64,000 bases of DNA, taken from Natrinema salaciae (GTDB lineage: Archaea > Halobacteriota > Halobacteria > Halobacteriales > Natrialbaceae). How positions within the stretch are numbered: position 1 is the first letter of the stretch; every line of letters begins with the position of its first letter. The stretch covers positions 427,860 through 491,859 of the forward strand of contig NZ_FOFD01000004.1 in the NCBI RefSeq assembly GCF_900110865.1, read 5' to 3'. Below the pieces are notes generated by a model. It was not told the origin of the DNA. It did not search any database and saw only the letters and a program-made list of their open reading frames with translations. Shown here one piece after another: positions 18,549 to 21,367 of this stretch. The position numbers and the translations under genes were made by a program.

Positions 18549-18964
18549 TCGTCCTGCCGACCGCCGTCCGCAAGGCGATCCTCGAACGCGCCCGCGAGGG
18601 CAGTCCCGAGGAGATCTGTGGGGTCCTCGGCGGCGAATACGAGCCCGACGGGCGGAGCCGCGTGCGGTCGCAGTATCCGGCCGAAAACGTCGCCGAGACC
18701 CCGCGGACGCGGTACGAGATCGACCCCGAGCAGCAGCTGACGATCTTCGAGCGACTCGAGGACCGCGGCGAGGAAATCGTCGGCTTCTATCACTCCCACC
18801 CCCGCGGCCCGCCGCGGCCGAGCGCGACCGACGCTGCGCGGGCGACCTGGCCCGATCGGTCGTACGTTATCGTCTCGCTCGAGCCGCTCGAGGTGGGGTC
18901 GTGGCGGTGGCGGGCGGAGTCCACCGACGGACGATTCGAGCGGGAACGGATCGTCGACGACTGA
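18545..18964 (+). CDS. JAMM/MPN+ metalloprotease, desampylase-like
   Basis: A 139-residue single-domain JAMM (Rpn11-like) zinc isopeptidase. The full motif is present: acidic pair Glu22/Glu23 before CGVLGG, and His83, His85, Ser93 and Asp96 in YHSHPRGPPRPSATDAA. Spacing His85-Ser93-Asp96 equals that of the Haloferax desampylase HvJAMM1, which removes ubiquitin-like SAMPs from target proteins. It starts at GTG 18545, overlapping the stop of the BtuF-like gene by four bases. By homology it should cleave SAMP conjugates, including those on MoaE, which is encoded 12 kb away. Confident in fold and catalytic site; desampylase role is inferred. Confidence 0.88.
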   Translation: MIVLPTAVRKAILERAREGSPEEICGVLGGEYEPDGRSRVRSQYPAENVAETPRTRYEIDPEQQLTIFERLEDRGEEIVGFYHSHPRGPPRPSATDAARATWPDRSYVIVSLEPLEVGSWRWRAESTDGRFERERIVDD

Positions 18965-19411
18965 TGCCCAACGGGTCTAATTCGTCGAATACAAGAAAGG
19001 CATTATATATTTAGAATGACGCATGAATATTAGTACCATTGACAATTCTGTATAGCCATTATCACCCACACGTAGGAACAAACTGCCGGCCAGTCAGAAT
19101 ATCTAGCCAGTCGTATTTGCTATAGTAGTCGTTAGAAGTCATAGCACTACCGCTCGCGAATTAGCGGCCAGCACCGTTCGTGTTAGCCACTCGAGTGCGA
19201 GCGGTGAGTGAATCGTTTCAACGACTTCTGTGGTGCTTTTCTACTGAGAGAGGATTCCACCACGAGGACTGGTTCGACGTTGTGGTTTAGCGCCAATTCT
19301 GTGAGTGAACCGGTGTCGTGAGAGCGATTGGATCGTCCAATCTATAGTATCCTATATGAAATATATAACTAAAATATAAAATTTAATTTGGAGGTGGGCC
19401 CAATAGATATT
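18965..19411. other. AT-rich gene-free stretch with a possible decayed reading frame
   Basis: 447 bases of visibly lower GC between the JAMM gene and the Tat-protein gene. No intact gene is present. On the minus strand, roughly 19160-19345 reads as a short protein-like stretch (SLTELALNHNVEPVLVVESS) bounded by stops, which could be a remnant of an unidentified gene. The last 60 bases hold very AT-rich promoter-like sequence and a GGAGGTG Shine-Dalgarno-like motif at 19390-19396. Confidence 0.45.
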
Positions 19412-20122
19412 ATGGGAGAAAATTACTTCCAGGAGAGGTGAGCAGTTTTGAAGACTACCGGTGCGGTTCTTGCCGGACTTGTCGGCATAGTAGGAACAGG
19501 ATCAGGGCAGCAGAATAGTGAGTACGATCCATCTACGGTTACCTGGTCAGACGAGGAGTCCGTGGTACGTTATAGTAACAGAGTGAATGAACTCAACGAG
19601 AGCCAGCAAAGGGAGATAATAGACGAATTATCCGTCGAACAAGAAGAAGCGATCGTCGCTGCGCAAGATGATCAGTTATCTTACGTCCGTACTCGGACAG
19701 TCAGCAGGGAACAATCGGATATGGCAACTGAAAATAGGGAACCAACAGCGGCTGCTGCCCCTGGGGTGCCCACGAATTACAAAGAATCCGTCGTCGGTTA
19801 CGATGGTATCGGACCGTTCAAAGATAAGAAATTCGAGTTTCGCCATACGATTGAGTGGAACTACGATGGTGACGACTACTACGCAAACGTGAGTAGTATC
19901 AATGGAGAGACGTATGACTGGGTTTGGAGCTATGAGGGGCCAGGTGCAAAAAGTGACGCAGAGTACGGGTCATTTTTCGATCACCGGAGAGAAGGTGTTT
20001 TCGAGGCAGGTATTACTAATCCCACGACGGTTACGCCCCATATAGAACTTCGGGGAACTGCAGACGGTGACGGCAGAACCGTATCTCAAGACGACGACTG
20101 GCCGGACGAAAACCTCCCGTGA
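19412..20122 (+). pseudogene. Secreted protein gene with an in-frame TGA in its Tat signal
   Basis: From ATG 19412, which follows a GGAGGTG motif, the frame reads MGENYFQER, then TGA at 19439-19441, then AVLKTTGAVLAGLVGIVG and a further 200 open codons. Restoring the TGA to CGA would give ERRAVLK and a hydrophobic stretch ending near TGSG, a classic twin-arginine signal peptide. The stop therefore falls on the second arginine. The remainder is acidic, Asn- and Tyr-rich, with a predicted helical part (NELNESQQREIIDELS) and a beta-like C-terminal half; no family is recognised. Translation could restart at TTG 19448, giving 224 residues, but without the Arg pair export would fail. Base composition is unlike the flanks, suggesting acquired DNA. 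Confidence 0.65.
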
Positions 20123-20268
20123 CAGAATACCAAGACACACCTTAGAGATAGCGAAGATCCAGTATATCGAAGCATGGCTACCCTCATGAACTACAAGACT
20201 GCTTGTTGCATGCCGAATCAGGGTCAACAGGTTACAAGATATACTGAACGGACAACTGAGTTGCTACC

Positions 20269-20463
20269 ATGGAAAAGAACGAGAATCCGTTCGACGATTA
20301 CAAGCTTCGGTGTGGGAGAGGACACAGACCAACAGTGACTGAAAAAGCCGAAGTACAACCGGACGACTCACTCGTCCGTCGGTATCGATGTCCGAAATGC
20401 GATCAAGTATTCCGGGTGAGAATGTCAGCGGACGGGTCGACCACTGAGACGGTCCGAGAGTGA
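20269..20463 (+). CDS. Small zinc-finger-like protein
   Basis: 64 residues starting MEKNENPFDDYKLRCGRGH and ending with YRCPKCDQVFRVRMS. One C-x3-H-like pair near residue 15 and a CPKC knuckle near 41-44 could bind a single zinc ion. It lies in the lower-GC stretch after the Tat-protein gene, with no clear promoter beyond an AT-rich upstream. Such stand-alone zinc microproteins are common in haloarchaea and mostly uncharacterised; nucleic-acid or protein binding is possible but not shown. Confidence 0.6.
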   Translation: MEKNENPFDDYKLRCGRGHRPTVTEKAEVQPDDSLVRRYRCPKCDQVFRVRMSADGSTTETVRE

Positions 20464-20525
20464 CGAGTATCATGAGTCTCCGTAGTCGAAACCGATCACC
20501 GATCTACGTGACACCAAACCAGACG

Positions 20526-20563
20526 CTCCGTCCGCTCGAGCCCGAGTTCGAAGACGGACGGAG
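20526..20563. terminator. Inverted repeat between convergent genes
   Basis: A perfect nine-base inverted repeat, CTCCGTCCG at 20526-20534 and CGGACGGAG at 20555-20563, with a 20-base loop. It sits between the convergent ends of the zinc-finger gene (20463) and the minus-strand gene ending at 20631. It could form a hairpin on either transcript and serve as a bidirectional 3' end. Confidence 0.4.
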
Positions 20564-20630
20564 AAACCGGACACCTCAGGCTGTGCGTCCGACGACAGGC
20601 CCGGAGATCGAGAATGTAGTCGGGGAACGC

Positions 20631-21077
20631 TCAGTCGTCCGACTCGTCCTCGAGTTCGTCCGCCCGTTCTCTCGCCTCCGCCGCCCGCTCGCGGAACTCC
20701 TCGATCCGCGTTTGCAGCTTCTTGCCGGCGGTGTACGTGAACTCGTCGGGCATCATCCCGTACTCGATCTCGAGAGTGATCATCGTGTCACAGCCCTCGA
20801 CGATTTCGGGTGCCCAACTGCCCTGTGCCAGCTTGGACTCGTCCGTGACGACGGCCTCGCCGTCCTCGACGTCGATAAAGGCGCTCACGATGTTCCAGAT
20901 GTTCGGATTGCTCGAGCTGACCTCGTCGAACAGCCCCTCGAGGCGCGACTCTTTGATCTCTGCGTCGCGTAGCTCTTCGAGGAGATCCTCGAGGGCGTCG
21001 GCGATTTCGTCGTATCTGGCGGCGTTCTCGCGGAGGTCGGCCGGCGGTTCGTCGGCGTTCGAGTCGGGTCCCGTCAT
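20631..21077 (-). CDS. Uncharacterised haloarchaeal protein with coiled-coil ends
   Basis: 148 residues, strongly acidic. Residues 10-50 and 115-148 are charged helices (ARYDEIADALEDLLEELRDAE and RIEEFRERAAEARERADEL type) likely to form coiled coils, flanking a beta-rich middle with SSSNPNIWNIVSAFIDVEDG and DTMITLEIEYGMMPDEFTY. No known domain recognised. The start at ATG 21077 overlaps the stop of a 12-codon upstream frame (ATGA), which itself begins where a TATA element predicts the transcript start. Confidence 0.75.
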   Translation of the reverse strand: MTGPDSNADEPPADLRENAARYDEIADALEDLLEELRDAEIKESRLEGLFDEVSSSNPNIWNIVSAFIDVEDGEAVVTDESKLAQGSWAPEIVEGCDTMITLEIEYGMMPDEFTYTAGKKLQTRIEEFRERAAEARERADELEDESDD

Positions 21078-21112: not shown

Positions 21113-21367
21113 GTACGACTGGTACCCGCTTCGGCACTGTAAACGTACGCTTCCGTCTCGAGATCGGACGTGGGAACGCGTATCGCGAGTCCGGACGGCG
21201 ACAGCGACTCTCCTGCTTCCGTGGCAACGCGGAACGGCCACACCCTCCCCAGCCGATTCGTTCGCGATCGCAGATCGCTCACTCATCCCTCGCACAGTGT
21301 CGTCTCGCGATTCACTCTCGTTCATCGCTCGACAGCGCGCGCCACCGCAGGATCCGTGTCGGAACGG

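Follow-up and report, generated by a model that had tools for sequence, protein, structure and literature searches.

An in-frame TGA on the second twin-arginine codon of a Tat-signal protein gene in Natrinema salaciae: probable decay of a gene on an AT-rich insert

Background

In Haloferax volcanii, termination of translation followed by reinitiation is efficient at very short distances between the stop and start codons, clearly reduced at 13-14 nucleotides and nearly zero at 22-23 nucleotides (PMC10666635). Shine-Dalgarno (SD) motifs within genes contribute variably to this reinitiation (PMC6728339). We describe here a gene in which a stop codon is closely followed by a possible start codon inside a signal peptide for the twin-arginine (Tat) pathway, with the stop on the second of the two arginines. 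The gene is located in the window, by which we mean the whole 64,000-nucleotide stretch of Natrinema salaciae DNA that was analysed; the source assembly is a draft of 4.86 Mb in 11 contigs, and the relatives are haloarchaea. We propose, with a probability of about 0.72, that it is a decaying copy of a mobile, dispensable haloarchaeal Tat-protein gene, broken by one nonsense substitution. Positions of the features are collected in Table 1.

Table 1. Features of the interrupted gene and its surroundings, in window coordinates
Feature	Position	Strand	Basis
AT-rich insert, 1.65 kb	18966..20627		GC profile; absent from 28/28 congeneric genomes, in which the flanks are adjacent
Multi-copy palindromic repeat, ~112 bp, with ends CTATAGTAGTCG... 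/ ...CGACTACTATAG	19118..19230		copies in genus
N-region of broken Tat signal peptide, MGENYFQER, ATG start, 9 codons	19412..19438	+	translation; N-region length of relatives
GAGGTGA, full match to general archaeal SD consensus; last three bases are the TGA	19435..19441	+	
In-frame TGA at second arginine of twin-arginine motif	19439..19441	+	R in 14/14 aligned relatives
Open frame from TTG, 224 codons plus TGA: remainder of signal peptide and mature domain	19448..20122	+	translation, profile, AlphaFold2 model
Small ORF, 64 aa, possible zinc ribbon, within the insert	20269..20463	+	PF23454, E 0.0076, below cut-off

Results

The plus-strand frame that begins with ATG at 19412-19414 encodes nine residues, MGENYFQER, and then reaches TGA; an in-frame GTG is located upstream at 19394. 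Past the stop the translation continues as AVLKTTGAVLAGLVG... for 226 codons until a second TGA at 20120-20122. The chance probability of so long an open run is ~6e-6 at the local composition, and the five other frames over the same stretch carry 5 to 17 stops each. These figures bear out the initial annotation, which had reported the interrupting TGA and some 200 open, protein-like codons downstream of it. The TGA at codon 10, premature relative to the intact homologues, is the only disabling lesion in the 236-codon frame, and the frame beyond it is protein-like.

The stop falls on a conserved residue of the signal peptide. At the column where the window copy has R followed by TGA, all 14 relatives in our alignment (A2) have RR, and the stop, entered as X, aligns on the second R of a family profile from which the window row had been left out, in agreement with the earlier proposal that the second Tat arginine is the residue lost. 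Against this profile the window protein scores 112 bits without its N-terminus and 116.5 bits with the pre-stop stretch and X, so that the nine pre-stop residues add ~4 bits; the match is full-length, covering profile positions 5-228 of 231. The N-region is similar in length to those of the intact relatives L056, L015 and L024, and the maximum mean hydropathy of the hydrophobic stretch is 1.66, compared with 1.57-1.66 in relatives. The first arginine and the hydrophobic stretch of a Tat signal are therefore kept, with TGA in place of the second arginine. At most homologous loci this arginine is encoded by CGA or AGA, the commonest codons there, and each is one substitution away from TGA. Judged from its sequence, the window gene belongs to a family of Tat-signal proteins but is broken.

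Three distant homologues, with 28-30% identity, were found among 149 related genomes, and a profile made from these three, followed by a profile made from 15 rows, recovered ~46 family loci. Members are mostly ~210-290 aa long and carry a Tat signal at the start; they are haloarchaeal, patchily distributed and without a Pfam or NCBIfam name. We found no close relatives of the window protein in genome contigs, viral contigs, phages or plasmids, and a genus-wide DNA search for close orthologues gave a match only to the repeat upstream of the gene. Searches of the translated protein against Pfam and NCBIfam returned only generic Tat-signal models and chance-level matches. Its AlphaFold2 model consists of three helices followed by a beta domain (mean pLDDT 72.6, pTM 0.55). 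A fold search with this model found nothing in the PDB or a viral library at E <= 0.001, and a profile search of solved structures gave chance-level matches only. The same genome also contains a distant paralogue (L055, at G000:C3:414861-415475), which has an intact RR and adjoins another short Tat-like protein.

Several family members (L005, L007, L009, L010, L013 and L015) adjoin a DrrA-like ABC ATPase and/or an ABC-2 permease; the window copy has no such neighbour. This recurring pairing could represent an export or self-immunity cassette, and as a hint of halocin or immunity function the ABC-transporter neighbours are only suggestive. We considered a halocin or immunity protein as an identity for the window protein and rejected it, because no curated Pfam or NCBIfam family of that kind was matched.

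The gene lies in an AT-rich insert, and the AT-richer island noticed initially is seen in the GC content, which is 0.43-0.54 across 18.9-20.5 kb compared with ~0.70 upstream. The insert is flanked on one side by a JAB-domain gene, which ends at 18964, and on the other by an opposite-strand gene, which ends at 20631; in each of the 28 other genomes of the genus these two genes lie next to each other. The gap between them, as given by the coordinates of the aligned flanks, is ~4 to 415 bases in these congeners (982 in one genome) versus ~1,660 here, and the break points are shown for nine of the 28. In addition to the Tat gene, the insert contains the 64-aa ORF, which has one relative (L136, in a single congener, 53% identity), and the palindromic repeat. 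This repeat (CTATAGTAGTCGTTGAA... / ...TTCAACGACTACTATAG at its ends) lies ~180 bp from the start of the Tat gene, on its upstream side, and has two further copies in the genome and many in congeners; it is probably a non-autonomous transposable element. Because the insert is missing from 28 of 28 congeners at a conserved junction, the Tat gene was probably acquired as part of a mobile element and is probably dispensable. Outside the insert, a repeat of ~139 bp (21211-21349) with very many copies genus-wide is found between the opposite-strand flanking gene and a sulfatase-like gene.

Broken copies are frequent in the family. Stops, frameshifts or truncation affect ~12 of the ~46 loci, and in four of these, the window copy included, the damage is in the signal peptide. 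Each of the other three has its sole evident lesion in the Tat signal peptide, namely a TAA directly after RRKVMK (L061, genome G398), an apparent frameshift after ERRKVLK (L023, G119), and an apparent frameshift after RRDVIKSVGTATK (L029, G419). Stops in the mature part were found in G443, at two loci of G428 and in G001, where there is further damage too. An apparent frameshift is present in G112 (L031), and fragments are present in G380 (two) and G086. All frameshift calls are our reading of three-frame translations, and some of the genomes with broken copies are drafts with parts missing (completeness 71% for G428), in which part of the breakage may be assembly error. Signal-peptide lesions account for four of eight localised lesions versus 13% of the length (P ~0.013); when the window copy is set aside they account for three of seven (P ~0.05), and the excess is not significant. 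We make no claim of enrichment, both for this reason and because copies whose mature part is intact are more readily detected.

Discussion

The gene is best explained as a copy undergoing decay. A small Tat-protein gene would have arrived within the AT-rich mobile insert, and one nucleotide substitution, in the simplest case from CGA or AGA to TGA, would have hit the second codon of the twin arginine. Translation from ATG 19412 would then stop after nine residues, and the exported protein would no longer be made. The observations behind this explanation are the stop itself, its alignment to a conserved R, the insert, a frame with no other lesion and the frequent decay of the family. We infer from them that the base call is correct, that this lineage ancestrally had an arginine, and that the cell no longer exports the protein. 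The initial annotation had suggested a recent one-base loss of function. The one-base loss is the best fit to our data, and the loss may be recent; however, since there is no close orthologue (the best relatives share ~28-30% identity), we assign it no date and do not name the ancestral codon.

With a single disabling lesion and a protein-like frame beyond it, the sequence by itself is compatible with recent decay, with a gene still used through TTG 19448 and with a base-call error. In the case of use through TTG, ribosomes would terminate at the TGA and begin again at this codon, the first in-frame start past the stop and six nucleotides after it, to make a product (MKTTGAVLAGLVG...) that lacks the twin arginines and stays in the cytosol or membrane. 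The heptamer GAGGTGA is a putative SD, recognised by its full match to the general archaeal consensus. Both the heptamer and the six-nucleotide spacing are present, and the frame downstream of the TTG is intact. The distance lies within the range of about -8 to +10 nucleotides from the stop that we took from the work on Haloferax volcanii (PMC10666635), and the heptamer overlaps the TGA. However, any glutamate-arginine-stop sequence spelled GAG AGG TGA yields this heptamer automatically, and TTG is a weak start codon. Moreover, in the other members with a damaged signal peptide, inspection showed no comparable start just past the lesion. Orthologues that start at the TTG and have no arginine pair upstream had been named as the finding that would overturn the assignment of the stop to a Tat arginine; the distant homologues that could be checked all begin upstream of RR. 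We therefore regard reinitiation as improbable. The product begun at TTG would not be expected to undergo Tat export despite a hydrophobic stretch like that of relatives, because the twin arginines are missing. A still bolder proposal is that one base change both removed the Tat arginine and built the ribosome-binding site of the TTG, so that the protein was relocated from exported to intracellular and not lost. This seems very unlikely to us. Were it true, the signal-peptide lesions in G398, G119 and G419 would represent a loss of export that recurs and is selected.

An error of sequencing or assembly, with arginine as the true codon and an intact gene, would account for a frame that is clean apart from one single-base lesion, and the genome is an 11-contig draft. 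However, the lesion is a substitution and not a homopolymer slip, nothing else around it points to poor quality, and broken copies among the relatives show that members of this family often decay. We consider such an error unlikely. Regulated readthrough had also been raised: the TGA would be read through, or recoded, in a programmed way, and export would be regulated. The frame does continue past the stop, which sits on a functionally critical codon, but TGA also terminates this gene itself and four of the eight neighbouring genes examined. A whole-genome search with RF01852 gave no tRNA-Sec above the cut-off, and none of its candidates is a tRNA that reads UGA; the five matches below the cut-off are ordinary Arg, Thr, His and Ser tRNAs (anticodons TCT, CCT, TGT, GTG and TGA). 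An Rfam search of 18900-20700 likewise detected no RNA family. To our knowledge, selenocysteine is not known from haloarchaea. Because TGA is an ordinary terminator here and only normal tRNAs were found, we give programmed readthrough almost no credence.

Read as decay by nonsense substitution, the locus documents the routine deterioration of a gene gained by horizontal transfer. As a test case it is clean in that the identity of one codon determines whether the protein is exported by Tat, is not made at all, or is made by reinitiation and not exported. The unnamed family to which it belongs, mobile among haloarchaea and in some copies located beside ABC exporters, may merit a name and functional study.

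Comparison with known systems

The termination-reinitiation pairs of Haloferax volcanii resemble the window locus in that stop and possible restart are a few bases apart with an SD just upstream (PMC6728339, PMC10666635). The window differs in that its first frame is a nine-codon remnant and its putative restart codon is TTG. With the haloarchaeal Tat family of alignment A2 the window protein shares a full-length profile match, a conserved W, an LSxEQxxA-type motif and the order of helices followed by a beta domain. It is ~17-29% identical to the other members, lacks the adjoining ABC transporter that some of them have, and carries a stop in its signal. Compared with haloarchaeal Tat signal peptides, it has the short N-region, the first arginine, the x-x-L-K that follows and the Gly/Ala-rich hydrophobic stretch, and differs in that the codon for its second arginine is TGA.
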